Source: Myxococcota bacterium (GTDB taxonomy: Bacteria; Myxococcota; B64-G9). From it: a stretch of 64,000 nt of DNA. Both the position numbers and the translations under genes were made by a program. Positions 13,051-45,195 of this stretch are shown here, one piece after another (position 1 is the stretch's first letter; each line of letters begins with the position of its first letter). The notes under the pieces were generated by a model that was not told where the DNA came from, did not search any database, and saw only the letters and a program-made list of their open reading frames with translations. The stretch lies in NCBI GenBank assembly GCA_022710975.1, contig JAKLGA010000003.1, positions 124,001-188,000 of the forward strand. The letters run 5' to 3'.

Positions 13051-15528
13051 ATGAACCAGTCCCTGTCGTGGTGGGGTCTGTCCGTGCTCCTGGCGTGCTC
13101 CCCGTTCCAGCTCACCTGCGACGGAGGTTCGGGTGCCCTACCCGAGTGCGGCAACCAGCAAGTCGAAGCCGGAGAGGTCTGTGACGACGGCCGCAACGGC
13201 GACGCCTGCGATGGCTGCCTCGACGACTGCACCGCCCTGGTGAACACCTGTGGCGACGGCTACCCCTGCGGCGCCGAGGAGTGCGACGACCACAACACCA
13301 CCGGCGGGGACGGCTGCTCGGCCAACTGCGCCAACGAAGTCATCCCCGCGTGCGGAGACGGAATCCCCCAGGCCGGCGAGGACTGCGACGACGGCCGCGA
13401 CGGCGACAGCTGCGACGGCTGCCTGGACGACTGCACCTCCCACTCCAACACCTGCGGCGACGGATTCCGCTGCGACCTCGAGGAGTGCGACGACCACAAC
13501 ACCACCGATGGAGACGGCTGCTCCGCCCTGTGCCTGGACGAGGTCCTGCCGTCCTGCGGCGACGGCACCCCGGACAACGGCGAGGACTGCGACGACGGCC
13601 GCAACGGCGACGACTGCGACGGCTGCCTGGACGACTGCACCTCCCACTCCAACACCTGCGGCGACGGCTACCGCTGTGACCTCGAGGAGTGCGACGACCA
13701 CAACACCACGGACGGGGACGGCTGCTCCGCCCTGTGCCTGGACGAGATCCTGCCGGCCTGCGGCAACGGCACCCCGGAGGCCGGCGAGGGCTGCGACGAC
13801 GGCAACGGCGTGCTGACGGATGACTGCCCGGACGGACCGGGCGGCTCGTGCGAGCCGGCGTACTGCGGCGATGGGTTCACCAACCTGTCCGGTCCTGCCC
13901 GGCCCGTCGAGGGCTGCGACGACGGCAACCTCGTGGACGCGGACGCCTGCAGCAACGCCTGCCAGCCGAACCCGTCCTGCGGCATCGATCAGGACGCCGA
14001 CGGCTCCTTCCTCGACCCGGGCGAGGGCTGCGATCTCGGCCCGCAGAACTCGGCCACCACCTCGGGCGACTGCGCCAGCGCGTGCCGTCCGACCTGCGTG
14101 TGCCCCGCCTGTGGCGACGGGGTGGTGGACTACCCGCTGGGCGAGGAGTGCGACGACGGCGGCGGCGCCGCCGGGGACGGCTGCGACGGGCTCTGCCGGG
14201 TGGAGGTCACCCCGGCCTGCGGCGACGGCCATCTGGACGCCTACCTGGGAGAGGAGTGCGACGACGGCGCCACCGCGCCCGGCGACGGCTGCAGCCCGAC
14301 CTGCCAGCTCGAGCCCGTCGGCCAGACCTGCGGCGACCAGGTCCAGGACGCCCTGGAGGCCTGCGACGATGGGGGGGCCTGCGCGGACGGCTCGGCGTGC
14401 AGCCTGGACGCGGACTGCGCCGGCCAGCCCACCGCCCCGCCCTCGGACGATCGCTGCCTGCCGCGCAACGGCGACGGCTGCAACGCGACCTGCACCCTGA
14501 CCAACGCGGCCTCCACCTTCCACCTGCTCACGGGCGGGGTCACGCTGGAAGCGGACAACACGTATCTCTGGATGGCCCAGGAGGGGAGCGGGATCCTCGA
14601 GCGCCTCGACATCCAGGCCTGCATCCAGCACCTGGCGGCCAACCCCTGCCTGCCCGGGCCCCCGCCGACCTGCGCGCAGCCCTGCCCGACCCAGCAGGTG
14701 ACCACCTCGGCGATCAGCCTGGCTCTGCCCGCGTCCGATGGGCGCACCCTGTGGTTCACCGAGTCCGCGTACCAGGTGTCGATGGTCGTGCGCGCCCTCG
14801 ACATCGCCGCCTGCGACGCGGCCCTCGCCCTGGGCGGGGACTGCAGCGCATTGGTCCAGGACTTGGCCGGCGGCCCCTGGGGCCACATGGATGGCGTGGG
14901 GGCCGCGGCCCGCTTCGGAGAGCCGCGCGGCCTGACCTACCACCACGGCGCCCTCTACCTGCTCGACTCGGGCTGCGGCACGCTGCGGCGCATCGATCCT
15001 GTCAGCGGGACCGTGGTGACGGTGGTCGGCCCGGCGCAGCCCACCTGCCCGAGCCCGGGCGCCCTCGAAGGCTACGGCGCGGCGGCCCGCCTCGCCAGCC
15101 CGCGCTACATGGCCACCGACAACTCCGGCTTCCTGTACGTCTCGGACAACTTCGACCACGGCCTGTGGCGCTACCACACCGCCAGCGGCTACCTGGAGCG
15201 CTTCGTCGGCACCGGCGTCTCCGGCTACCTGGACGCCCTGGACGGGCGGCAGGCCCAGTTCGCCCGGCCGCGCGACATCGCCTCGGACGGGACCAGCCTG
15301 TTCGTGGCGGACTTCAACAACTACGTGCTGCGCGAGGTCCACCTGACCACCCGGCGCGTGACCACGCTGCTGGGCCAGGCCGGCGCCTGCGGCAGCGCCT
15401 GGGGCACGGGCGCGCTCGCCCGCCTGGACAAGCCGATGACGCTGGTCTTCCACCACCCCAGCCGCTCTGTGTTCGTCTACACCGCCTCCGATTGCGGCTC
15501 GGCGCCGCAGATCTGGCGGGTGCGCTGA
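13051..15528 (+). CDS. Secreted Cys-rich DUF4215-repeat protein with C-terminal NHL-type propeller
   Basis: 825 residues from ATG 13051, six bases after GGGGAGG. A signal peptide ends near a Cys (SPFQLTC), so lipidation is possible though the lipobox is poor. Residues ~30-480 consist of myxobacterial Cys-rich repeats of the type CGDG...EECDD...GDGCS..C, likely disulfide-bonded. Residues ~490-825 read as NHL or SMP-30-like propeller blades (RFGEPRGLTYHHGALYLLDS, FARPRDIASDGTSLFVADFN, ARLDKPMTLVFHHPSRSVFV). The first three repeat units are long tandem DNA duplications. It is likely displayed outside the cell. The ligand is unknown. Confidence 0.88.
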   Translation: MNQSLSWWGLSVLLACSPFQLTCDGGSGALPECGNQQVEAGEVCDDGRNGDACDGCLDDCTALVNTCGDGYPCGAEECDDHNTTGGDGCSANCANEVIPACGDGIPQAGEDCDDGRDGDSCDGCLDDCTSHSNTCGDGFRCDLEECDDHNTTDGDGCSALCLDEVLPSCGDGTPDNGEDCDDGRNGDDCDGCLDDCTSHSNTCGDGYRCDLEECDDHNTTDGDGCSALCLDEILPACGNGTPEAGEGCDDGNGVLTDDCPDGPGGSCEPAYCGDGFTNLSGPARPVEGCDDGNLVDADACSNACQPNPSCGIDQDADGSFLDPGEGCDLGPQNSATTSGDCASACRPTCVCPACGDGVVDYPLGEECDDGGGAAGDGCDGLCRVEVTPACGDGHLDAYLGEECDDGATAPGDGCSPTCQLEPVGQTCGDQVQDALEACDDGGACADGSACSLDADCAGQPTAPPSDDRCLPRNGDGCNATCTLTNAASTFHLLTGGVTLEADNTYLWMAQEGSGILERLDIQACIQHLAANPCLPGPPPTCAQPCPTQQVTTSAISLALPASDGRTLWFTESAYQVSMVVRALDIAACDAALALGGDCSALVQDLAGGPWGHMDGVGAAARFGEPRGLTYHHGALYLLDSGCGTLRRIDPVSGTVVTVVGPAQPTCPSPGALEGYGAAARLASPRYMATDNSGFLYVSDNFDHGLWRYHTASGYLERFVGTGVSGYLDALDGRQAQFARPRDIASDGTSLFVADFNNYVLREVHLTTRRVTTLLGQAGACGSAWGTGALARLDKPMTLVFHHPSRSVFVYTASDCGSAPQIWRVR
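13147..13758 (+). repeat. Three tandem 204-base repeats within the DUF4215 gene
   Basis: Units 13147-13350, 13351-13554 and 13555-13758 each encode 68 residues starting at the Cys of a CG(D/N)G motif. GAGGAGTGCGACGACCACAA recurs at 13276, 13480 and 13684, exactly 204 bases apart. Units 2 and 3 are closest. Degree of identity suggests recent duplication or gene conversion and a possible length-variable surface domain. Confidence 0.85.
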
Positions 15529-15601: not shown

Positions 15602-16909
15602 ATGGAGCGGCGCGCCTTCACCCACTGCGGCGTGAGCCTCGGCCAGGTGCACGCCCTGGCCGGCCGCCTGCGAGCCGAGCTGGGGTCGGCCGCGGGGCCC
15701 GTGTGCCTGGCCAGCCAGGATCGGCCCGTGGTGGCGGCCGCGCTGCTGTGCGCGCTGGCCGGCGGCCCGCCGCTGGTCCTGCCCCACGCGCTCTCGGCCC
15801 GGGTGCTGGCGGAGGCGCGCGAGGCCACCGGCTGCGGCCTGGCGCTGGTCGCCGGCGACGAGGTGGAGCTGCCCGACGGCGTGCAGGCCGTGCCGGCCGC
15901 GCTCGGTCCGGAGCCCCCGGCCGACACCCCGGCGCCCGCGCGCGCGCGGGCCGAGGACGAGGTGTTCCTGTCGCTGTTCACCGGCGGCTCGACCGGCCGG
16001 CCCCGGCTGTGGCCCAAGAGCCCGCGCGCCCTGCTCGGGGAGGCGGCCGCCCTGGTCCGGCGCTTCGGCTTCGGCCCCGCGGATCTGGTGCTCGCCACCG
16101 TGTCGCCGCTGCACATCTACGGCCTGCTGTTCTCGGTGCTGGCCCCGCTGCTGTCCGGGGCGCGGGTGCTGCGCCCCACGGCCTTCCTGCCGGCCGAGAT
16201 CGAGCGGCTGCTCGGTGAGCCCGGCCCGAGCTTGCTGGTCGGCGCGCCGGCCCACTACCGCGCGCTGCAGGCCGCCCGCCCGCGCGGCCCGCGCCTGCGG
16301 CTGGCCTTCTCCTCCGGGGGCATGCTGGACCCGGCCGACGGGGACCACTTCTCCCGCGCCTCGGGCGTGTCGGTGGTGGAGGTGTACGGCTCCACCGAGA
16401 CCGGCGGGGTGGCCACCCGCGACCGCCTGCGCGGGGAGCAGGACTGGACCCCGGCCGAGGGGGTGCGGCTGGGCTTCGCCGACGAGCGCCTGGCGGTGGA
16501 CTCGCCCTTCCTCTCGCCCGGCCTGCCGCGCCAGGCCGACGGGCTGTTCCTCACCGGCGACCGGGCCGCGCCCGCGCCGGGCGGGCGCTTCGCGCTGCTC
16601 GGGCGGGTGGACGGGATCGTCAAGGTGGCCGGGAAACGCGTGGACCTGGCCGAGGTGGAGCAGAAGCTCGGCGCGCTGCCCGGGGTGCGGGAGGCGGCGG
16701 TCCTGGCCGCCGAGGCCACGGGCGGCCGGGAGCACGAGATCCTCGCGCTGTACGCGGGCACGGCCGAGCCCGAGGCGGTGCGCGCCATGCTCGCCCAGCG
16801 CGTGGAGCCCCAGGCCCTGCCCCGGCGGATCCTGCGGGTCGACGCCATCCCGCTCACCCCGTCCGGCAAGCGCGATCGCCGGGCCCTCGAGACCCTGCTG
16901 AAGGGCTGA
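15602..16909 (+). CDS. AMP-dependent acyl/aryl ligase of the ketosynthase cluster
   Basis: 435 residues from ATG 15602. Core ANL motifs are present: the phosphate loop FTGGSTGRP (126-134), the A5 motif VYGSTETGG, the hinge and A8 region LLGRVDGIVKVAGKRVDLAEVE, and the A10 Lys motif PLTPSGKRDRRAL. It is short for the family (500+ residues are usual) because the N-terminal part is reduced, as in ligases of aryl polyene-type clusters. It would activate a carboxylic acid as the acyl-adenylate and pass it to the ACP or CoA; the substrate is not predictable by eye. It faces the minus-strand cluster tail to tail, with no bases between the two stop codons. Confidence 0.85.
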   Translation: MERRAFTHCGVSLGQVHALAGRLRAELGSAAGPVCLASQDRPVVAAALLCALAGGPPLVLPHALSARVLAEAREATGCGLALVAGDEVELPDGVQAVPAALGPEPPADTPAPARARAEDEVFLSLFTGGSTGRPRLWPKSPRALLGEAAALVRRFGFGPADLVLATVSPLHIYGLLFSVLAPLLSGARVLRPTAFLPAEIERLLGEPGPSLLVGAPAHYRALQAARPRGPRLRLAFSSGGMLDPADGDHFSRASGVSVVEVYGSTETGGVATRDRLRGEQDWTPAEGVRLGFADERLAVDSPFLSPGLPRQADGLFLTGDRAAPAPGGRFALLGRVDGIVKVAGKRVDLAEVEQKLGALPGVREAAVLAAEATGGREHEILALYAGTAEPEAVRAMLAQRVEPQALPRRILRVDAIPLTPSGKRDRRALETLLKG

Positions 16910-17689
16910 CTACAAGATCCTGCCCGACAGCCAGCCGGTGGCCACCACCACCCCGCCGGCCTGGAGCAGCGCGGGCGCGATCTCGGGGTCGGCCACCAGA
17001 TCCACCGTCCCGCCCAGCGTCTCGAGCAGCGCCCACACGAACGCGCGCCCGGTCTCCTCGTTGACGCGCCGCTCGACCGCCACGACGTGCCCGGCCAGCA
17101 GCGCCATGCTCTCTTCTTCGTCCGACTCGTCAGACCTGTCCGACCTGTCTGACTCGTCGGACTCCTCCCGGAACAGCCCCAGCGGGATGAAGGCCCGTGA
17201 GGCCAGCCGGACCTCGTCCTGCGGCCGGGCCTCGAAGGCCTCGAGCCCGGGGTAGACCTGCAGCTCGTGGGCGAAGAGCGCGAGCTGCACGTCGACCCGC
17301 GCGGGCAGCCTCCGGCCCGCCTGGCGGGCCGCGTCCGGGCAGTCGAACACGAACGGGTAGAGCCCGTCCTGGCTGTCGGCCAGGGCCTCGGGCGCGACCG
17401 CCCAGGCGTGGAAGGCGCCGTCCAGCGGGCTGTCGCCCTCCCGCGCCAGCTCCCGGGTCAGGACCGCCGGCATCCGCCCCCGCCCGTCCAGGTGGGGGTT
17501 CATGCCGACCAGCTCCTGCTCGGCGGAGATCTGCGCCCACAGCTCGGCGCCGCACGGCAGGCGCCAGTGCAGGTAGGCCCCGCGCTCGGACTCGACCAGC
17601 GCGCCCTCCTCGTCGGCGCGCGCGGCCAGGTCCACGAACTCCTCCTCGCTCTCCGCGTCGAACCCGATGCTGGTCAGGTGGCTGGCCAT
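16910..17689 (-). CDS. Hypothetical protein ending the ketosynthase cluster
   Basis: 259 residues. Its ATG at 17687-17689 lies inside the end of the dehydratase-PPTase gene (16-base overlap), so it belongs to the same transcript. It is acidic, with no signal peptide or membrane segment. Around residues 175-190 is a Ser-Asp/Glu-Arg tract encoded by a short tandem DNA repeat. The N-terminus (MASHLTSIGFDAESEEEFVD) resembles small cytosolic proteins of unknown function; I recognise no domain. It could be a structural partner of the biosynthetic enzymes or unrelated; position is the only evidence. Confidence 0.7.
   Translation of the reverse strand: MASHLTSIGFDAESEEEFVDLAARADEEGALVESERGAYLHWRLPCGAELWAQISAEQELVGMNPHLDGRGRMPAVLTRELAREGDSPLDGAFHAWAVAPEALADSQDGLYPFVFDCPDAARQAGRRLPARVDVQLALFAHELQVYPGLEAFEARPQDEVRLASRAFIPLGLFREESDESDRSDRSDESDEEESMALLAGHVVAVERRVNEETGRAFVWALLETLGGTVDLVADPEIAPALLQAGGVVVATGWLSGRIL
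17121..17165. repeat. Five 9-base tandem units encoding an acidic Ser/Asp tract
   Basis: The units TCCGACTCG, TCAGACCTG, TCCGACCTG, TCTGACTCG and TCGGACTCC follow one another. On the coding (minus) strand they give a Ser-Asp-Glu/Arg tract in the hypothetical protein. Because 9 is a multiple of 3, copy-number change would alter linker length without shifting frame. Confidence 0.7.
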
Positions 17690-19188
17690 GGGATCTCCTC
17701 CCCCAGGACGAGCAGGGCGAACACGTGCCCGTCCAGCTCGGCCACGCGCGCCTCGCACTCCAGGGCCGGCTCCGCGATGCGCAGCGCCACGCGCTCCGCC
17801 CCGAGGGCCGTGACGCGCACCCGCGCGAGCGCGCCGCCCAGGCCGAAACCGCAGGCCTTGGCCGCGGCCTCCTTGGCGCACCAGGCGCGGGTGGCCGCCG
17901 GCAGCTCCCCGAGCGGGCTCGCCGCCACCAGGGCGGCCTCGGCCTCGTCCAGGTACATGCGCCGGGTGGACAGCACCCGCGGGGCCATGCGCTCCACGTC
18001 CACGCCCAGCCGCCGCCCGTCCGCCGCGGCCACGGCGAAGCGGTCGTCGTGCGCCGCCGAGACCGGGCCGGCGAAGCCCGGGGCCGCGGGCAGCACCCCG
18101 TCGGGCGCGCTGGTCTCCAGGGCCGCGGGCGGGGAGGCGCGATCGCCGGTGAGCCGCCGCCCGAGCAGCTTCAGCGCCAGGCGCGCGCCCAGGAACGAGC
18201 GCCGGCGCCGGAGGCCCTGGCCCTCGAGGCGGGTCCGCTCGACCAGGGTGAGCGCACGGGTCACGGCCGGGCAGACCGCGTCCAGCTCGAGCACGACCAG
18301 CTCGCGGCAGCCCGCGCGGAGCGCGGCCAGCGGCTCGCCCGCCCGGACCTGCACCCAGCCGGCCGCCTGCATCCGCCCCCGGGACACGTCCTGCATGCCG
18401 AGGCCCAGGCAGGCCTCGCGCGGCGCGCCGCCGTCGTCGAAGAGCCACAGGTCGAACAGCAGCTTCTCGCCCTCCCGGCCGGTCGGGAACACCCGGCAGG
18501 ACACCTGCTCGCCCGGCCGGATCGGCTCGAGCACGCGGCGCTCGGCGTAGCCCGTGGGGAACGCGAGGGTCGCCGCGTAGCGCTGGCCCCAGGCGCAGGC
18601 CAGGTGGAAGGCCGCGTCCAGCGGGAAGGGCGAGCCGAGGGGCCCGGGCGGCGCAGGGTGGTCCGCGGCCACGAGCCGCCCGAGCGCGCCCGCCTCGCTC
18701 AGCCACACCGTGCCCTGCGCGTTGTGGAAGCTCGGCCCGAAGGGGACGAGGTCCGCGTACAGCCTCTCGGCCGGGAAGGAGCAGCCGGGCCCCGGCAGGC
18801 AGGCCAGCTCGTCGAGGGGCGGGATCGCCACCGGCGAGGTCCCGCCCCCCGGCGCGAAGGTCACCTCCACGTGGGTGCGCGCCCGGGCGAGGCCGGCCCG
18901 GCCCGCGGCCTGGCGGGTGACCAGGCGGGCCACCAGCGCGCCGCCCTCCAGCCGCTCGAGCTGCACCTCGGCCTCCACGGGAGAGCGGTCCGCGGGCGTC
19001 TCCAGGAAGCGCAGGAAGCGGGCCGCGCGCGAGGCGCCGACGTCCAGCCCGGGCTCCGCCTCGGCCGCCACCCGGGCCAGCAGCTGCAGCGCCTCCACGG
19101 CCGGCAGCACGGAGCGGCCCTCGGCGCGGTGGTCGGCCAGGTAGGCCGGGTTCTGGATGCGGACCGGGATGGCGCGCGCCGGGCTCAC
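17674..19188 (-). CDS. Fused polyketide-type dehydratase (PS-DH) and 4'-phosphopantetheinyl transferase
   Basis: 504 residues from a GTG (19186-19188) overlapping the thioesterase stop as GTGA. The N-terminal ~270 residues form a double-hotdog dehydratase with both catalytic motifs: HRAEGRSVLP (HX3GX4P, H20) and DAAFH (DX3H, D191 and H195). After a linker, residues ~360-504 are a Sfp/AcpS-type transferase with GVDVE (D397, E399) and WCAKEAAAKACGFG (K/E motif 438-444). One protein would thus both dehydrate beta-hydroxyacyl-ACP and install the phosphopantetheine arm on the ACP. Both halves look intact. The next gene starts inside its 3' end. Confidence 0.88.
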   Translation of the reverse strand: MSPARAIPVRIQNPAYLADHRAEGRSVLPAVEALQLLARVAAEAEPGLDVGASRAARFLRFLETPADRSPVEAEVQLERLEGGALVARLVTRQAAGRAGLARARTHVEVTFAPGGGTSPVAIPPLDELACLPGPGCSFPAERLYADLVPFGPSFHNAQGTVWLSEAGALGRLVAADHPAPPGPLGSPFPLDAAFHLACAWGQRYAATLAFPTGYAERRVLEPIRPGEQVSCRVFPTGREGEKLLFDLWLFDDGGAPREACLGLGMQDVSRGRMQAAGWVQVRAGEPLAALRAGCRELVVLELDAVCPAVTRALTLVERTRLEGQGLRRRRSFLGARLALKLLGRRLTGDRASPPAALETSAPDGVLPAAPGFAGPVSAAHDDRFAVAAADGRRLGVDVERMAPRVLSTRRMYLDEAEAALVAASPLGELPAATRAWCAKEAAAKACGFGLGGALARVRVTALGAERVALRIAEPALECEARVAELDGHVFALLVLGEEIPWPAT

Positions 19189-19664
19189 TTGGGGAAGTTC
19201 TGCCAGGTGGCCACGGTGATCGGATCCACGGCCACCACCTGGCCCCTGGGGTTCAGGGCGCAGTGGCGGGTGTGGCCCCGGCATACCAGGCAGCCCGACT
19301 CGGCGTGGGTGATCACGTAGTCGAACCGGATGCGCACCCGGTCGATGTCGCCGGTGCGCGTGTGGACGAGGAAGGGATCGTCGTAGCGCAGCGGCTGGAA
19401 GTACTGCACGCCCAGATCGAAGATCGGGTAGACGAAGCCCGAGGCCTCCACCTGGGCGTAGGGGAAGCCCACGTCGCGCATCAGGTTGGCCCGGCCGTAC
19501 TCGAAGTAGCGCAGGTAGTTGGCGTGGTAGACGATGTTCGAGCGGTCCGTGTCGGCGTACAGCACCCGGCTGGCCGCGCGGTTGTACACCAGCCCCGAGA
19601 CGCGATCGCGCACGAAGCGCGGGTCCCCCTCCAGCGGCGCGGGCTCGAACTTGGGCTGGCGCAT
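19185..19664 (-). CDS. 4HBT-type acyl thioesterase
   Basis: 159 residues with a single hotdog fold. The family signature is clear at residues ~33-58: RVLYADTDRSNIVYHANYLRYFEYGR, with the Asp expected for 4-hydroxybenzoyl-CoA-type thioesterases (DTD). An ACP- or CoA-thioester hydrolase releasing the finished chain is the natural role here. The start codon ATG is at 19662-19664, 20 bases after the ketosynthase stop; its own stop overlaps the GTG of the dehydratase-PPTase gene. Confidence 0.85.
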   Translation of the reverse strand: MRQPKFEPAPLEGDPRFVRDRVSGLVYNRAASRVLYADTDRSNIVYHANYLRYFEYGRANLMRDVGFPYAQVEASGFVYPIFDLGVQYFQPLRYDDPFLVHTRTGDIDRVRIRFDYVITHAESGCLVCRGHTRHCALNPRGQVVAVDPITVATWQNFPK

Positions 19665-19683
19665 CCCGTCGCTCCCCGCGGGC

Positions 19684-20949
19684 TCAGGTCGCCCGGAACA
19701 GCACGCAGCAGTTCGTGCCGCCGAAGCCGAAGGAGTTGGACAGCGCGATCTCCACCCGCGCCCGGCGGGCCTGGTTGGGCACCACGTCGAGATCGCCGAG
19801 CTCCGGATCCGGGAGGTAGTTGATGGTCGGCAGCAGCACGCCCCGCCGCATGCCCTCGATGGTCAGCGCGGCCTCGATGGCCGCCGAGGCGCCCAGCGTA
19901 TGGCCGAGCTGCGACTTGTTGGAGGACACCGGGATGCGCCCGAGCGCCGGGCCGAACACCTCGCGCAGGCAGGCCACCTCGCAGGCGTCCCCGCGCGGGG
20001 TCGAGGTGCCGTGGGCGTTGACGTACTGCACGTCGCCGGGCTGCAGGCCCGCGTCCGCCAGCGCCTCGCGCATGGCGCGCTGGATGGTGGGCGGGTTCGG
20101 CTTGGTGAAGTGGTTGGCGTCGGAGGTCCAGCCGACGCCCAGCACCTCGGCCCGGGCCTCGAGCCCGTGGGCCCGCACGCACTCCTCGGCCGCCAGCACC
20201 AGCGCGCCCGCGCCCTCGCTCAGCACGAAGCCCTTGCGGTCGCGCGAGAAGGGCCGCGAGGCCTGCGCGGGATCGTCGCAGGCCCGGTCGCCGGGCTTGA
20301 CCTTGATGGTGGCGCCCATGTTGTCGAAGCCGTGGATGATCTCGGGCAGGATGGCGGCGTCGGCCCCGCCCACCAGGGCGAAGTCCAGGTCGCCGTCGCG
20401 GATCAGCCGCGCGGCCAGCCCGATGGCGTGGTTGCCGGAGGCGCAGGCGCCCTGGGGCGAGAAGCTCACCCCGGTGAAGCCGAGCAGCATGCCCGCCTTG
20501 CCGCCCGGCAGGTTGCCGCACAGGTTGGGCAGCAGGTAGGGGCTGACCTTGAGCGGCCCGTGCTCGGCCAGGCTGTGGACCGCGGCGCGGTAGGCGTCGT
20601 GCCCGTTGAGCGCCGAGCCCATCAGGCAGGCCGTGCGCGGGGCGACCGCGGGCGTCATCTCGAGCCGCGCGTCCCGCAGCGCCTCCTGGCACACGGCCAT
20701 GGTCATCAGCACCACGGCGGCGTTCCAGTTGTAGGCCTCCTTCTCCGTGGCGAAGTCGAGCTGGCCGAGATCCCAGTCGGGGATCTCCCCCACCACGTCG
20801 CAGGCGGAGTCGACCCGGCAGCGGGTCACCCGGCGGAAGCCGGCCTGGCCGGCCAGGGACCGCTCGAAGGTCGTCGCGAAGCGCATCCCCAGCGGGGTGG
20901 CCGCCCCGTAGCCGATCACGAACACCCGCCGGTTGCTGGGAGCCCGCAT
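19684..20949 (-). CDS. Beta-ketoacyl-ACP synthase (KAS II-like), first of a pair
   Basis: 421 residues with a thiolase-fold ketosynthase pattern. The catalytic triad is complete: C169 in QGACASGNHA, H313 in NAHGTSTPRGD and H350 in NKSQLGHTLGAS, with K345. The C-terminus has the usual NSFGFGGTN loop. It therefore should be an active condensing enzyme, not a chain-length factor. It lies nine bases after the second ketosynthase gene. The region around the active Cys (PQGACASGNHA) differs from typical FabF (TACA), suggesting an unusual acyl pocket. GAGGTG precedes the ATG. Confidence 0.92.
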   Translation of the reverse strand: MRAPSNRRVFVIGYGAATPLGMRFATTFERSLAGQAGFRRVTRCRVDSACDVVGEIPDWDLGQLDFATEKEAYNWNAAVVLMTMAVCQEALRDARLEMTPAVAPRTACLMGSALNGHDAYRAAVHSLAEHGPLKVSPYLLPNLCGNLPGGKAGMLLGFTGVSFSPQGACASGNHAIGLAARLIRDGDLDFALVGGADAAILPEIIHGFDNMGATIKVKPGDRACDDPAQASRPFSRDRKGFVLSEGAGALVLAAEECVRAHGLEARAEVLGVGWTSDANHFTKPNPPTIQRAMREALADAGLQPGDVQYVNAHGTSTPRGDACEVACLREVFGPALGRIPVSSNKSQLGHTLGASAAIEAALTIEGMRRGVLLPTINYLPDPELGDLDVVPNQARRARVEIALSNSFGFGGTNCCVLFRAT

Positions 20950-20958
20950 CCCGTCACC

Positions 20959-22209
20959 TCACTCGAGCCGCCCGAGCACCAGGCAGGCGTTGCAGCCACC
21001 GAAACCGAAGGCGTTCTTCAGCACGTGCCGCTGCGGGTGGGGGCGGGCCTGCTCCACCAGGCTCACCAGCCCCAGCTCGGGGTCGGGCGTGTGGTTGAGG
21101 GTCGGCGGCAGCTCGCCGCGCAGCAGGCCCTCCACGGCCAGCACCGTCTCGATGGCCGAGGCGGCGCCCATGGCGTGGCCGAGCAGCGACTTGTTGGCGG
21201 TCACCGGCGGGGGCCGGGCGCCGAACACGGCGCGCAGGGCCTCGGCCTCGACCGCGTCGCCGGCCTTGGTCGAGGTGGCGTGGGCGTTGACTGCGTCGAT
21301 GTCCCCGGGCGCCAGCCCGGCGCTCTCGATGGCCAGCCGCATGGCCCGCTCCACGGTGGGCAGGTGCGGGGCCACGAAGTGGTGGGCGTCGGAGGTCTGC
21401 CCGTAGCCCGCGAGCTCCACGCGGGGGTGCAGCCCGTGCGCCCGGGCGAAGTCCGCGCTCGCGAGCACCAGCGCCGCGGCGCCCTCGGACACCACGAAGC
21501 CCCGCCGATCCACGGAGAAGGGCCGGCTGACCCGGGCCGGGTCCTCGCTGGCGCCGCCGGCCGGCCGCTTGGCCGCGCCGTTCATGGTGGCGAAGCCGGC
21601 CACGATGGGCTCCACCAGGCAGAAGTCGACCGCCCCGCACACGGCCACGTCCGCCTGGCCCGAGGCGATCAGCATGGCGCCCACGATGAGCGAGCTGCAG
21701 CCCGTGGCGCAGGCGGAGACGGTGGACACGATCGGCCCGGTGGCGCCGGTCAGCATGCTGACCTTGCCGCCCACCATGTTGATGCAGGAGTTCGGGTTGA
21801 CGAACGGGTGGGGCAGCTTGCGCTCGGCGATCATGCGCCGATCCGCGGCCAGCACCGCGTCCAGCCCGCCCACGGCCGAGGAGAACGTGGTGGCCACCCG
21901 CGGCGCGAGGGACGGGGTGATCTCCAGCCCGGCCCGCGCCAGCGCCCGGTGCACCACCAGCAGCGCGTGCGGGAAGATGGGCGAGGTCCAGTGGGCCATG
22001 GCCCGGGGCCTGAGGAACTCGTACGGCCCGGCGTCGAGCTCCGGGACCTGGCCCGCCACGTCGACCGGGAAGGCCTCGTCCAGGGGGAAGCGCGTCAGCC
22101 GCCCCACCCCGCTCTGGCCGGCCAGCGCCCGCCGCCACTGGTCCTCGAGCTCGGTCCCCAGCGGAGACACGAGGTCATGACCCAGCAGGACTGGCTTGGC
22201 CTGCGCCAT
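20959..22209 (-). CDS. Beta-ketoacyl-ACP synthase (KAS II-like), second of a pair
   Basis: 416 residues. The triad is C167 (VSACATGCSS), H310 (NAHATSTKAGD) and H345 (NKSLLGHAMGAA), with K340, so it is catalytically complete. The closing loop NAFGFGGCN is present. It is clearly a paralog of the neighbouring ketosynthase but with a FabF-like active-site context. Two active ketosynthases without a Cys-less partner differ from classical type II PKS (KS plus chain-length factor). It follows the first radical SAM gene by nine bases. Confidence 0.92.
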   Translation of the reverse strand: MAQAKPVLLGHDLVSPLGTELEDQWRRALAGQSGVGRLTRFPLDEAFPVDVAGQVPELDAGPYEFLRPRAMAHWTSPIFPHALLVVHRALARAGLEITPSLAPRVATTFSSAVGGLDAVLAADRRMIAERKLPHPFVNPNSCINMVGGKVSMLTGATGPIVSTVSACATGCSSLIVGAMLIASGQADVAVCGAVDFCLVEPIVAGFATMNGAAKRPAGGASEDPARVSRPFSVDRRGFVVSEGAAALVLASADFARAHGLHPRVELAGYGQTSDAHHFVAPHLPTVERAMRLAIESAGLAPGDIDAVNAHATSTKAGDAVEAEALRAVFGARPPPVTANKSLLGHAMGAASAIETVLAVEGLLRGELPPTLNHTPDPELGLVSLVEQARPHPQRHVLKNAFGFGGCNACLVLGRLE

Positions 22210-22218
22210 GGGATGCGC

Positions 22219-23217
22219 TCACCAGGGCAGGAAACGGTACAGCTTGGCGAACATCTCGTAGACCGTGATCCAGTTCTGCAGGTCCTGGGTCGAGCGCAGG
22301 TGCTCGCGCTTGTTGACCATCACCCAGCTCATGTGCGCCGCGCCGTCCATGCAGGTGGTGCAGTCGCGCGTGGCGGAGGTGCAGCAGCGGTGCATGGTCT
22401 TCAGATCCGCGGCCCAGCGGATGAAGCGGATGAGCCGCCGGGGCTGGGGCGAGCGCGTGTCCATGGGCTCGGTGACCGAGGGGCACTCCTGCCAGCCGAA
22501 CCTGCGGCCCATCATGATCCGGGTGGTGAGCACCTCGTGGTAGTAGCGGCTGGAGATGACGCTGCGGGGGTAACGCTCCAGCGCAGCGTCCATCTCGTCG
22601 CGCACCTGGGCGAGCTGCGCCTCGGTCCAGCTGAAGCCGTCCACGCCCTCGTCGTTGGACAGCAGCTGCATGTGGACCTTCAGGCCCACGTCGTCGATGC
22701 GCTTCACCACCTCCCCGAGCCGGCCGAGCTGGCGCGGGGTGATGGTGTAGAGGTAGTAGGTGTACGGGTCGCCGGCGTAGTTCTTGCTGGAGACGGCGAA
22801 GGTGTCCCGGCCGCGCAGCTTCTTCTCCGTCTCCGGGTCACCCCACAGGGAGATGCCCACCATCATGTCCGGGAAGCGATCGCGGGGCACCTTGATCTGC
22901 CCGTTCGTGGCGCAGTAGGTCGGCAGGCGCTTGTAGAACGCCTCGATGCGGTCCATGTACAGGGTGGGCTCGCCGCCGATCAGGATGGCCAGGTTGACCC
23001 CGCGCTCCCGCTCGCGCTCGATGAACTCGACCCAGCGGGCGGGATCCTTCTCCTCCCGGGCCGCCTTGTGCTCGTCGGAGGAGAAGAAGAAGCAGCCCTT
23101 GCAGCGCAGGTTGCAGCGGTCGGTGACGTCGTAGATGGAGCTGCGGATGTTGAGGCGCGAGATGCGCTTGTAGCGCTCGTACCATTCGTCATCCAGCAAC
23201 GAACGGACCGTGTTCAT
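22219..23217 (-). CDS. Radical SAM protein with C-terminal second Cys cluster (paralog 1)
   Basis: 332 residues. The cluster motif CX3CX2C is C35-C39-C42 (DRCNLRCKGCFFF), GGEP follows at 81-84 and ISLWGD at 122-127. A second Cys group near the C-terminus (C245, then C278, C279, C286 and C289; pattern CC-x6-C-x2-C) suggests an auxiliary Fe-S site as in SPASM or Twitch proteins. It matches the next protein along its whole length. The substrate may be an ACP-bound acyl chain given the cluster, but that is inference. It lies nine bases before the ketosynthase gene. Confidence 0.9.
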   Translation of the reverse strand: MNTVRSLLDDEWYERYKRISRLNIRSSIYDVTDRCNLRCKGCFFFSSDEHKAAREEKDPARWVEFIERERERGVNLAILIGGEPTLYMDRIEAFYKRLPTYCATNGQIKVPRDRFPDMMVGISLWGDPETEKKLRGRDTFAVSSKNYAGDPYTYYLYTITPRQLGRLGEVVKRIDDVGLKVHMQLLSNDEGVDGFSWTEAQLAQVRDEMDAALERYPRSVISSRYYHEVLTTRIMMGRRFGWQECPSVTEPMDTRSPQPRRLIRFIRWAADLKTMHRCCTSATRDCTTCMDGAAHMSWVMVNKREHLRSTQDLQNWITVYEMFAKLYRFLPW

Positions 23218-23248
23218 CGGATCGCCTCTCCTCGGCGGGCATCGCGCC

Positions 23249-24433
23249 TCAGCTCGGGCGGACGCTCTCTCCCGGGGGCGCCACCAGGTGCCGGCACAGG
23301 TTCTGGCCCTTGTCGTAGCCGGTGACCCAGACCGCCAGGTAGGTGTCCACGTAGTCCAGCCAGGCGCGGAAGGTGTCGGGATCGGTCGCGTGCCGGTGCA
23401 GCCGGGCGGTGACCACCGCCGAGCCGGAGGCGTAGTGCCGGCAGTCGGCGCAGTCGGTGTCCGGCACGCAGCAGGCCGCGCTGCGGTCCCAGTTCAGATC
23501 GGTGCGGTACTGGCGGAAGGAGCGTCCCAGGCCGATGTCCGTGGACGGGTTCATGCGCGGGTAGGAGCAGCCGAACAGGTCGTGCAGCCCCTTCGCGTGC
23601 GTGTGCGCCACGGCGCTGTAGGTGGAGAACAGCACGGCCCCGGGGTGGGCGTCGAGCAGCTCCAGCATCATCCGGCGCGTGGCCAGCAGGCTGTCCGGGG
23701 TGTGGGTCAGCCCGCCCTGGTGCCCGACGGGCGCCGAGAACATGTTGAAGGTGACCTTGCAGCCGGCGGCCGCCAGGCGCGCGACCACCCCGCGCGCCTC
23801 CTCGACGTTCTGGCGGGTGAAGGTGTACACGAACACCGCGCGCGTGTCCCCGGCGTAGTTGTCCATCTGGCGAGACAGCAGCGCCCGGGCCCGGCGCACC
23901 CGCGCGCTGGTCTGGTCGTCGCCCCACACCGAGATGTGCAGCTTGTAGCCCACCGAGGCGGGGATCCGGCGAACGCCGTTGGTGGCGATGCAGCCCAGCG
24001 GCTGCTCCTGGTGGCACACCTCGAGCAGCTCCGGCACCAGGGCCGGCTCGGCCCCGGCCAGCACCACGAAGGTGATGCCCCGCGCCCGCTCGGCCCGCAT
24101 CAGCGCCCGCCAGGCCTCGGGCGAGCCGTTCTCGTGGGCGTGCTGCTTCTCGCCCTCGAAGTAGTAGCAGCCCTCGCAGCGGATGTTGCAGCGGTTGGAC
24201 ATGTCGTAGGTGGACTCGCGCAGGAAGAAGAACTTGCGCACCCGCTCCCAGCGGGCGGCCACCTGGGGATCCTGGAGCAGCTCGGTGAACTTCCACCTGC
24301 GGGCCGGCCGGACCGGCTGGACCGGCTGGACGAGCTGCAGCGGACGCACGGGCGCGGCCTCGCGCGCGGGCGCGGGCTGCGCCAGCGGGACGAACTCGGG
24401 CACGTGCCTGCTCGTCTGACCCAGCTTGGACAT
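23249..24433 (-). CDS. Radical SAM protein with C-terminal second Cys cluster (paralog 2)
   Basis: 394 residues from ATG 24431-24433 with GGAGG five bases upstream. A Pro/Val/Gln-rich N-terminal tail (~1-45) precedes the core. The [4Fe-4S] motif is C82-C86-C89 (NRCNIRCEGCYYF). The SAM-binding GGEP is altered to GAEP (127-130); ISVWGD and NYAGD match paralog 1. The C-terminal cluster is C289, then C321, C322, C328 and C331 (CC-x5-C-x2-C). It follows the ACP gene by 22 bases. The altered GGEP may be tolerated or may signal a specialised role. Confidence 0.9.
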   Translation of the reverse strand: MSKLGQTSRHVPEFVPLAQPAPAREAAPVRPLQLVQPVQPVRPARRWKFTELLQDPQVAARWERVRKFFFLRESTYDMSNRCNIRCEGCYYFEGEKQHAHENGSPEAWRALMRAERARGITFVVLAGAEPALVPELLEVCHQEQPLGCIATNGVRRIPASVGYKLHISVWGDDQTSARVRRARALLSRQMDNYAGDTRAVFVYTFTRQNVEEARGVVARLAAAGCKVTFNMFSAPVGHQGGLTHTPDSLLATRRMMLELLDAHPGAVLFSTYSAVAHTHAKGLHDLFGCSYPRMNPSTDIGLGRSFRQYRTDLNWDRSAACCVPDTDCADCRHYASGSAVVTARLHRHATDPDTFRAWLDYVDTYLAVWVTGYDKGQNLCRHLVAPPGESVRPS

Positions 24434-24455
24434 GCTGCCTCCAACCCGCCGCGCT

Positions 24456-24716
24456 TCAGCCCGCCATGCGAGCGTGCACGTACTCCGCGATGAGCCGGAG
24501 GTTCTTGAGCTTCGGGTAGTCGTCCTCGTCGATGGTGATGCCGTACTCGTCCTGGAGCACCAGCACCACGGCCGTCAGGTCCATCGAGTCGATGCCCAGC
24601 TCGTCGACCAGATCCAGGCCGCGATCGAAGGAATCGGCGGTGACGTCCTCCAGCTTGAGCTCGGAGATGATGATCTCTGCCACGCGCTGCTCGACTGCCT
24701 TGATGTCCGGTTTCAC
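24456..24716 (-). CDS. Acyl carrier protein of the ketosynthase cluster
   Basis: 86 residues, acidic and helical, with the phosphopantetheine site Ser at S44 in ELGIDSMDLTAVV. Helix I (IKAVEQRVAEIIISEL) and the loop with D-rich residues fit an AcpP-like four-helix bundle. It leads the gene run that continues with the two radical SAM genes and the ketosynthases, so the pathway intermediates are probably tethered to it. The PPTase domain encoded at 17674-19188 likely modifies it. A GGAGGG ribosome site precedes the ATG. Confidence 0.92.
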   Translation of the reverse strand: MKPDIKAVEQRVAEIIISELKLEDVTADSFDRGLDLVDELGIDSMDLTAVVLVLQDEYGITIDEDDYPKLKNLRLIAEYVHARMAG

Positions 24717-24820
24717 GCCCTCTCCCTCCGGCCTGGCCGGCTCACCGACGGGTCATGCGCTCCGCTCGAGGGGTCGTTCAAGCCCGTCTCGCCTGACGAA
24801 TCACCTCGCAGAGCTTGATG

Positions 24821-24849
24821 CTGCTAACATCCCGAACGGCTGAAGTCAA
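24821..24849 (-). promoter_or_regulatory. Possible promoter ahead of the ACP-led gene run
   Basis: On the minus strand TTGACT (24844-24849) is followed after 17 bases by TAGCAG (24821-24826). The -35 is good, the -10 matches poorly (three of six). The surrounding 184-base gap is less GC-rich than the genes, as expected of a promoter region, and separates the FabZ-like gene from the ACP gene. Confidence 0.35.
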
Positions 24850-24900
24850 GGACGCTCCAGAGAACAACGGATTCCAATTATCCCGATTCCATGGGCAGGG

Positions 24901-25275
24901 TCAAGCCCCAGAAACCATGACGAGCACACCTCTGCCCACATCTTCCTCTCCCTCCCGGAGCTGGAACTCGGCCCGGAGCGAACCTCCGTCCCGGGTGCAC
25001 GCGAGCCGGATCTCCAGCCTGGCCCCGGGGCGGAGCGCTTTCCTGAAGCGCACGCGCTTGAAGCGCTCCGCCGCCCACGCCGCCCTGGGCAGCTCCAGGC
25101 CGCGCAGCACGGCCTCCTCCACCAGGGCCAGCAACCCCAGGCCGGGGAAGATAGGATTTCCCGGGAAGTGCCCATCGAACCAGGGTGAATCCGGCCTGAG
25201 CACCACGTCCGCCTCGACCTGCCCGGGCCCGGGAGAAGCGCAGCCATCCAGGTGCAACCAGGCCTGAGCGTCCAA
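24901..25275 (-). CDS. FabZ/ApeI-like single-hotdog protein
   Basis: 124 residues. I chose the TTG at 25273-25275 because CGAGGTGA sits five bases upstream; a TTG at 25323 would add 16 residues but lacks a ribosome site. The dehydratase-type motif DGHFPGNPIFPG is present (His ~36), placing it with FabZ or the ApeI-type hotdogs of polyene clusters. In FabZ the catalytic Glu follows five residues after PG; here that position is Ala (PGLGLLALVEEA). It may be a non-classical dehydratase, a binding partner, or use another residue. It lies upstream of the ACP gene on the same strand. Confidence 0.78.
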   Translation of the reverse strand: MDAQAWLHLDGCASPGPGQVEADVVLRPDSPWFDGHFPGNPIFPGLGLLALVEEAVLRGLELPRAAWAAERFKRVRFRKALRPGARLEIRLACTRDGGSLRAEFQLREGEEDVGRGVLVMVSGA

Positions 25276-25333
25276 GGGTTCACCTCGCTCGTGCTTCGAC
25301 GGCGACCCGGCCAGCCTCTTCAAGGCGCCCCGG

Positions 25334-44354: not shown

Positions 44355-44807
44355 ATGCCGGCCCCCCTGACAGCCCGCGCCCGCTGGGCGCTCGTGCCCC
44401 TGCTGCTCTCGGATCTGCTGCTGCTCGTGCGCGTGGCCCCGGGCGGCGACGGCGCCAGCCAGCTCTCCCTGGGGCTCTCCAGCCTGGTGTGGATCCTGGG
44501 GGGGATCGACCTCGCGCTGGGTGCCGGGCTGCTGCTCGGTGCGCACTGGGCCCGGGAGCTCGGCCGCCACCGCTGCTGGCTCGCGGCCGCCTTCCTGGGC
44601 TTCACCTGGCTGGTGTACCTGATGGCGCTCCCGTCCACGACGGGCACCGGGGTGGGCCCGGCCGAGCTGACGGCCATCGGCCGGGACGGGCTGGTGATCG
44701 GGCTCTACGCCGCGGCCTGGGCGCTGCTGCGCGAGCCGCGCCGGCCACCGTCCTCGGCGCCGGACCGGGGCGCTAGCGCATCCCCAGCGCCGCCTTCAGC
44801 CCCTTGA
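44355..44807 (+). CDS. Small four-helix membrane protein, unknown
   Basis: 150 residues with about four hydrophobic segments (WALVPLLLSDLLLLVRV, LSLGLSSLVWILGGIDLALG, CWLAAAFLGFTWLVYLMAL and LVIGLYAAAWALL) and a Pro/Ser-rich tail. Its 3' end overlaps the convergent Cys-rich gene by 35 bases. No ribosome site of good strength precedes the ATG. I do not recognise a family; the membrane topology is the only prediction. Confidence 0.6.
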   Translation: MPAPLTARARWALVPLLLSDLLLLVRVAPGGDGASQLSLGLSSLVWILGGIDLALGAGLLLGAHWARELGRHRCWLAAAFLGFTWLVYLMALPSTTGTGVGPAELTAIGRDGLVIGLYAAAWALLREPRRPPSSAPDRGASASPAPPSAP

Positions 44808-45195
44808 CCAGCTCGAAGTACTCGGTCCGCTCGTGGGGCTCGTTGAGGATGTGGAAGTCCTTCTTGCCCAGCCCCACGCAGCCGAAGCAGTAGGTGCAGT
44901 CCACGCAGGCGTCGCACAGCGTGAGGTAGGCCGAGCCCGAGCAGTTGGCGCAGTCCACGCAGTAGGCGCACTGGTGGCAGAAGCGGCAGCGCAGCGCGTG
45001 GGTGGTGTGCGCGCACTGCACGCACTCGACCGAGTGGGTGCAGCGGTAGCAGCCCTGGCAGGCCTGGCAGAACATGCAGCTCGTGCACTGGGTGCAGCCC
45101 CGGCACTCGAACGAGCCGGGGTTCGTGTCGGCGGTGGCGTACTCCTTGCGCAGCCGCTCGAGCTCCCGCTGGAACTCGGCCTTGCCCATGCTCAT
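44773..45195 (-). CDS. Cys-ladder protein with continuous C-x-x-C steps
   Basis: 140 residues from ATG 45193-45195 with AGGAGGAG just upstream. After a helical ~30-residue N-terminus, the centre has 21 Cys, mostly at every third position (CRGCTQCTSCMFCQACQGCY, then CRFCHQCAYCVDCANC and CDACVDCTYCFGC), with a few His. A ~30-residue helical tail follows. No signal peptide is seen, so it is cytosolic. This pattern resembles Cys-rich proteins sometimes named caib/baif-associated, whose function is unknown. The array could bind several metal ions or Fe-S clusters. Confidence 0.75.
   Translation of the reverse strand: MSMGKAEFQRELERLRKEYATADTNPGSFECRGCTQCTSCMFCQACQGCYRCTHSVECVQCAHTTHALRCRFCHQCAYCVDCANCSGSAYLTLCDACVDCTYCFGCVGLGKKDFHILNEPHERTEYFELVKGLKAALGMR

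Follow-up and report, generated by a model that had tools for sequence, protein, structure and literature searches.

A radical SAM and ketosynthase gene module linked to an aryl-polyene-like cluster in a Myxococcota genome

We analysed a stretch of 64,000 nucleotides, hereafter the window, from a Myxococcota bacterium of the lineage B64-G9 (GenBank assembly GCA_022710975.1). The window spans bases 124,001-188,000 of contig JAKLGA010000003.1 (C23 in our set), and the host genome totals 7.13 Mb in 29 contigs. It contains, at positions 15,602-25,323, a locus encoding two radical SAM enzymes (rSAM1 and rSAM2) and two ketosynthases (KS1 and KS2). Our preferred reading, to which we give a probability of about 0.6, is that this locus is the rSAM/KS half of an anaerobe-type pathway, aryl-polyene-like and highly reducing, in which a type II polyketide machinery builds an outer-membrane lipid. 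The 9.7 kb first singled out are half of a larger cluster, whose second gene set extends from about -17.9 to +2.9 kb relative to the window start. The aryl polyene (APE) cluster of Escherichia coli CFT073 maps near one-to-one onto genes of the two halves, and a seven-gene core of the locus keeps its order and strand in 61/61 loci of other genomes.

Gene content of the two halves

The ten open reading frames (ORFs) of the locus were translated and scanned against Pfam and NCBIfam (E values in brackets, here and below). All nine genes that an earlier note had listed from the sequence are present where it placed them, with the domain matches it claimed. An AMP-dependent acyl/aryl-acyl carrier protein (ACP) ligase (15,602-16,909, plus strand; PF00501 3.6e-25, PF13193 2.5e-8) is convergent with the other genes, all on the minus strand, which corrects the note's account. 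The minus-strand series begins with a fusion of a polyketide synthase-type dehydratase and a 4'-phosphopantetheinyl transferase (DH-PPTase; 17,674-19,188, with a start at 19,185 or 19,188; PF14765 1.5e-8, PF01648 7.3e-11) and a 4HBT/hotdog thioesterase (TE; 19,185-19,664; PF13279 2.6e-14). They are followed by the FabF-like ketosynthases KS1 (19,684-20,949; TIGR03150 3e-112) and KS2 (20,959-22,209; TIGR03150 8e-95), both below the cut-off of that model. Next come rSAM1 (22,219-23,217; PF04055 2.5e-8), with a C-terminal auxiliary [Fe-S] motif CC-x6-C-x2-C, and rSAM2 (23,249-24,433; PF04055 2.5e-5, below the Pfam cut-off), in which GAEP replaces GGEP. The series ends with the acyl carrier protein ACP1 (24,456-24,716, GTG start; PF00550 1.3e-8) and a FabA/FabZ-like hotdog dehydratase (24,901-25,323; PF07977 1.8e-8, PF22818 ApeI-like 4.5e-5). 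The tight spacing described earlier holds from the DH-PPTase to ACP1, with gaps of -4, 19, 9, 9, 31 and 22 bases; it does not extend to the FabZ-like gene, 184 bases from ACP1.

Both ketosynthases are catalytically complete: Cys-His-Lys-His is intact in each, and conserved in 67-68 of 67-68 loci for KS1 and in 78-80 loci for KS2. The fusion protein has intact dehydratase (HxxxGxxxxP) and transferase (GVDVE and WxxKEAxxK) motifs; the dehydratase His is kept in 63/63 loci, and the transferase motifs do not vary in the 20 loci with an aligned transferase domain. The DS motif of ACP1 is found in 75/75 loci.

The second gene set begins upstream. The 20 kb preceding the window encode, in this order, an LpxL-type acyltransferase, an MMPL-type exporter-methyltransferase fusion, a family-2 glycosyltransferase, a DegV/DAK protein and an aromatic ammonia-lyase, then a LuxR-type gene, a deacetylase-methyltransferase, a B12 radical SAM protein and a fused ketosynthase-chain length factor (KS-CLF, 754 residues), and lastly a second ACP (ACP2), a hotdog dehydratase, the ketoreductase FabG, LolA and a DUF3261-like lipoprotein. 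The earlier note had counted a ketoreductase as missing; FabG lies within this APE-type set, 2 kb upstream of the window and at a distance of 17-18 kb from the ligase. The set continues into the window, on the minus strand, with a B12-binding radical SAM protein (1,153-2,442; weak matches to PF02310 and PF04055) and a small membrane protein of 126 residues (2,489-2,869). Homologues of the former, 63-69% identical, adjoin DUF3261-LolA-FabG in ten loci, and homologues of the latter occur in 28 of the 56 cluster loci that span 12 kb or more.

We compared 18 APE proteins of E. coli CFT073 (published gene table, PMC8253772) with the cluster protein set by phmmer. Three counterparts lie inside the locus: the ligase corresponds to ApeH (5.7e-30), the FabZ-like dehydratase to ApeI (1.3e-7) and the TE to ApeK (1.5e-17). 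For chain building, FabG corresponds to ApeQ (5e-61), the second hotdog protein to ApeP (3e-11), and the KS-CLF, which is near the solved ApeO (PDB 6qsp), to ApeO (2.5e-55) and ApeC (4.5e-6). The export and anchor functions are matched by the MMPL protein (ApeM, 2e-14), LolA (ApeL, 5e-7) and the glycosyltransferase and acyltransferase (ApeJ, 6e-34 and 8e-14). ACP2 corresponds to ApeE (6e-21), and the ketosynthase KS4 of the relative G008 to ApeR (4e-105). The DUF3261-like protein was assigned to ApeN by its position, the match being non-significant (0.58). Among PDB sequences, the FabZ-like protein matches 6qsr (7.5e-6), which we take to be the ApeI structure, and weakly (0.23) 7qv0/8ayb, presumably the FabZ of anammox bacteria.

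The tenth ORF (16,910-17,689, minus strand), missing from the earlier gene list, lies between the ligase and the DH-PPTase. It encodes 257-259 residues without a Pfam or NCBIfam match and is probably accessory or unrelated. We rejected it as a cluster part because it is not conserved in relatives; a SUKH-4 gene takes its place in G003. Its product has a short Ser-Asp-Glu repeat, ESDRSDRSDESDEEE, encoded at about 17,050-17,130.

Conservation and linkage across genomes

Among 84,980 species genomes scanned, rSAM1 has at least 424 relatives. Locus detail comes from the best 80, many loci being from metagenome-assembled genomes; the breadth given here is a lower bound, and distant members may differ. 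In these 80, rSAM1 is 73-80% identical over its whole length, and the hosts belong to Thermodesulfobacteriota (Syntrophales, Desulfobacterales and Desulfobulbales), Spirochaetota and Myxococcota. The carriers of rSAM1, which include the named isolates Desulfosarcina widdelii, Desulfogranum japonicum, Desulfofustis glycolicus and Desulfopila sp., are mostly oxygen-avoiding bacteria and number in the hundreds. Of 297 genomes drawn evenly from Thermodesulfobacteriota, 21 (about 7%) encode rSAM1, with rSAM2 at most 4 kb away in 21/21.

Among 195 genomes of the window's phylum, five encode the rSAM pair, and these five belong to one family, that of the window. A heme-copper oxidase was not found in the window's genome, which fits anaerobic life, and is present in two of the five family carriers. 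In the rSAM1 tree the sequences of this family stand in two places and the deep branches are weakly supported. We therefore set aside a close, family-specific horizontal transfer, as the tree settles neither vertical descent nor transfer.

The core ACP1-rSAM2-rSAM1-KS2-KS1-TE-DH was assessed in loci where six or more of the seven genes are visible, which gave the 61 loci mentioned above, from Thermodesulfobacteriota, Spirochaetota and Myxococcota. Its constancy in all of them indicates that the arrangement is not due to chance. The earlier note had made its proposal depend on the co-occurrence of the rSAM and KS genes in other genomes, and this association is upheld.

The link between the two halves reaches across phyla. 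Of the 40 well-flanked loci, 25 have at least two of 12 APE-half genes. The halves are interleaved on one contig in G008, form one stretch in G003, and make a single run in Spirochaetota and Thermodesulfobacteriota (for example in six of our loci). The ligase is linked to the cluster in G003, in G008 and in six other loci. In the window's family, the KS-CLF is encoded by 5/5 rSAM carriers and by 1/4 non-carriers. In the window's own genome, the halves are separated by about 12.7 kb of genes that are not conserved with the cluster; those at 3.0-15.5 kb were rejected as cluster parts, since relatives do not conserve them. One of the intervening genes (13,051-15,528, plus strand) encodes an 825-residue Cys-rich protein with DUF4215 repeats.

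Putative pathway and alternative readings

rSAM1 and rSAM2, paralogues that share 28% identity, each have a CxxxCxxC motif and a second, C-terminal Cys cluster. The seven motif Cys of rSAM1 and its C245 are invariant in 84/84 sequences; in rSAM2, CxxxCxxC is kept in 77/77 and CC-x5-C-x2-C in 81/81. Neither protein reached the cut-off of an NCBIfam family model or shows the canonical SPASM spacing, and PDB sequences gave weak matches at most. The AlphaFold model of rSAM1 (mean predicted local distance difference test score of 83) is closest among solved structures to the anaerobic sulfatase maturase anSME, CteB, TigE and AbmM (template modelling (TM) score of about 0.5), and predicts a radical SAM barrel with an extra Fe-S domain. 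Enzymes of this twitch/SPASM type typically oxidise their substrates or form bonds without oxygen. No other protein of the cluster set is as conserved as rSAM1, a constancy that suggests one fixed reaction. Because the order ACP1-rSAM2-rSAM1 is fixed, the pair may act on a chain bound to ACP1; this is the least supported step of the mechanism.

Two further observations concern radical SAM genes elsewhere. In a Myxococcales metagenome-assembled genome (L106:4080-5066), rSAM1 has an in-frame stop and rSAM2 is in two pieces, from decay or assembly error. A separate small radical SAM family with the motif CNLKCRHCYHF (L028:16160-17041 and L029:9359-10363) is common to G003 and G004, both members of the window's family, and in G003 it precedes a Cys-rich repeat gene.

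The ammonia-lyase hints at the starter unit. It has the ASG triad of the methylidene-imidazolone (MIO) cofactor, and its alignment with the histidine ammonia-lyase HutH places a Gln opposite Glu414, as is typical of Phe/Tyr lyases. Orthologues with 47-64% identity occur in 19/41 rSAM carriers and are distinct from the HutH-like proteins (35-40%) of others. In E. coli, the canonical APE starter, 4-hydroxybenzoic acid, is made by the chorismate lyase UbiC. We discarded UbiC as the starter source here, as it (PF04345) is absent from 19/19 genomes tested, with a positive E. coli control. An aryl 2-enoic acid is the likely starter in the carriers of the ammonia-lyase, judging from these residues.

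From the gene content, linkage and conservation observed, we infer the following chemistry. The ammonia-lyase would yield cinnamate or coumarate, as its MIO triad and active-site residues suggest, and the ApeH-like ligase would put the aryl acid on an ACP. By homology with APE synthesis, the KS-CLF, FabG and the two hotdog dehydratases would then make a conjugated polyene through repeated condensation, reduction and dehydration. The module ACP1-rSAM2-rSAM1-KS2-KS1-TE-DH/PPTase may alter or lengthen the chain on ACP1, where the rSAM pair, with an extra Fe-S cluster like that of the anaerobic sulfatase maturase, could perform an oxygen-independent oxidation or form a C-C bond. The acyl chain would finally be released and attached to a lipid or sugar anchor, and the MMPL/LolA system would carry it to the outer membrane. 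Going by homology, the APE half thus supplies the KS-CLF, ketoreductase, second dehydratase, second ACP, LolA/MMPL-type export, glycosyl- and acyltransferases, B12 radical SAM proteins and ammonia-lyase. The product could be a ladderane-like or a novel lipid.

Several observations weigh against this reading. In fifteen of the 40 well-flanked loci, no more than one of the 12 APE-half genes is found within about 10 kb; G006 has the halves on separate contigs, and G005 has the KS-CLF without the rSAM genes. ApeN, ApeG, ApeB, ApeD and ApeA had no significant phmmer match. About half of the carriers, most Desulfobulbales among them, lack the ammonia-lyase, and an aryl starter is therefore not universal. 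As for the rSAM pair, what speaks to its substrate and reaction is the fold class, at the TM score given above.

Some of these points would also be expected if two independent pathways, a modified APE pathway and a separate rSAM/KS lipid or polyketide pathway, shared nothing except their location. The seven-gene module is indeed kept more strictly than its link to the APE genes, and the intervening genes in the window and the separate contigs of G006 fit that scenario too. We nevertheless consider it unlikely. It must contend with the full interleaving of the halves in G008 and G003, their single runs in distant phyla and the co-occurrence of rSAM and KS-CLF in the window's family; moreover, an APE-type ligase, FabZ and TE lie inside the rSAM half itself.

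Other readings come from earlier work on related clusters. In Kuenenia stuttgartiensis, Rattray et al. (2009) described type II fatty acid synthase (FAS II) clusters in which two radical SAM genes lie side by side; they reported a syntenic cluster from Desulfotalea psychrophila and proposed a role in the synthesis of polyunsaturated fatty acids (PUFAs) and ladderanes (PMC2649909). The first proposal would make our locus a system for PUFA or hydrocarbon synthesis by anaerobic FAS II extension, with radical SAM and flavin enzymes inserting the double bonds. Dehydratase, ketoreductase, ketosynthase and thioesterase are all present here, and D. psychrophila, itself a carrier of such a cluster, has C31:8 and C31:9 hydrocarbons and no ladderanes (PMC2649909). 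The flavoprotein central to that proposal, which resembles phytoene desaturases, fits poorly: it occurs in 24/40 rSAM carriers (G007, G008 and 22 others), is absent from the other 16, and had no match at 1e-60 in the window's genome, G003 or G006. We thus excluded it as a required part, its absence from the window's genome indicating two or more subtypes of the class. Nor would a fatty-acid pathway be expected to include an ApeH-like ligase, LolA/MMPL export genes and an aromatic ammonia-lyase, and C31:9 hydrocarbons have another known origin, the OleABCD chemistry of other bacteria. PUFA or hydrocarbon synthesis therefore seems quite improbable to us.

Most doubtful is the proposal that the rSAM pair turns an APE-type polyene on ACP1 into strained or polycyclic, ladderane-like rings: the Kuenenia cluster kuste3335-3352 has the same inventory (adjacent rSAM 3342/3343, ligase 3344, FabG 3341, membrane protein 3337, glycosyltransferase 3335, deacetylase 3351 and several FabF), and antiSMASH assigns 'ladderane' clusters, with function unassigned, to many phyla in the Cariaco Basin, including Desulfobacterota and Myxococcota (PMC9902471), but D. 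psychrophila made no ladderanes and the Kuenenia genes gave no product in E. coli, though there the rSAM 3342/3343 proteins were not detected (PMC4790861). A later structural study stated that direct evidence for the ladderane pathway was nil (PMC9821293).

Ladderane biosynthesis has long been an open question, and its only candidate genes have been studied in bacteria without pure culture. The presence of a cluster with the same gene content in named, culturable isolates makes the chemistry testable in pure cultures. Calls of 'ladderane' clusters by antiSMASH outside anammox bacteria may often mark a different, polyene-based lipid. If instead the rSAM pair did cyclise an APE-type polyene, the anammox ladderane pathway would be a derived aryl polyene pathway, and ladderane-like lipids would be found in many sulfate reducers, syntrophs, spirochaetes and myxobacteria.

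A protein elsewhere in the window deserves mention: the gene at 44,773-45,195 (minus strand) encodes a Cys-repeat protein of 140 residues, rich in closely spaced Cys (CRGCTQCTSCMFCQACQGCYRC...).

Comparison with known systems

Plasmid-borne relatives of rSAM1, in Alteromonas, Burkholderia and Tistrella, are 31-34% identical to it and share the radical SAM and C-terminal Cys motifs (L031:17929-19095, L032:17956-19089 and L033:17962-19227, at 32-34%). Unlike our locus, they have a single rSAM gene, which in Alteromonas and Burkholderia adjoins no KS genes. Those of Alteromonas and Burkholderia stagnalis sit in a compact three-gene cassette, flanked by a diiron 'phenylacetic acid catabolic' protein and a hotdog protein, and the Tistrella gene has a Rieske-type dioxygenase gene upstream. 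The twitch/SPASM enzymes anSME, CteB, TigE and AbmM resemble rSAM1 in predicted fold and in an auxiliary Cys cluster following the barrel. They differ from it in sequence (12-17% identity, TM score of about 0.5), and the CC-x5/6-C-x2-C pattern is peculiar to rSAM1 and rSAM2.

With the E. coli APE cluster, the two halves share the ligase, the ApeI and ApeP dehydratases, the thioesterase, KS-CLF, ketoreductase, ACPs, LolA, MMPL exporter and glycosyl-/acyltransferase. They add to it the rSAM pair, KS1 and KS2, the DH-PPTase fusion, the B12 radical SAM proteins and the ammonia-lyase. In addition, KS and CLF are fused here, ApeJ is split in two genes and chorismate lyase is absent.

Compared by published gene lists, the Kuenenia kuste3335-3352 and Desulfotalea clusters have in common with ours the adjacent rSAM pair, several FabF, ACPs, FabZ, FabG and ligase, as well as glycosyltransferase, MMPL-like membrane protein, deacetylase and methyltransferase genes, and anaerobic hosts. 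The window's genome differs from them in lacking the phytoene-desaturase-like protein and in having an aromatic ammonia-lyase linked to the cluster. The kinship that the earlier note saw with both APE clusters and anammox FAS II/radical SAM clusters is thus borne out by gene matches and shared inventory, and its view that neither class fits exactly was fair. The locus also matches no characterised pathway, a match that would have told against the note's proposal: the closest precedent, that of Rattray et al., was described with its product uncharacterised. A link between this class and aryl polyenes was not found in the literature searched. The locus is a variant of that known, uncharacterised class; what is new is its APE identity, the invariant seven-gene module and the breadth of this module.

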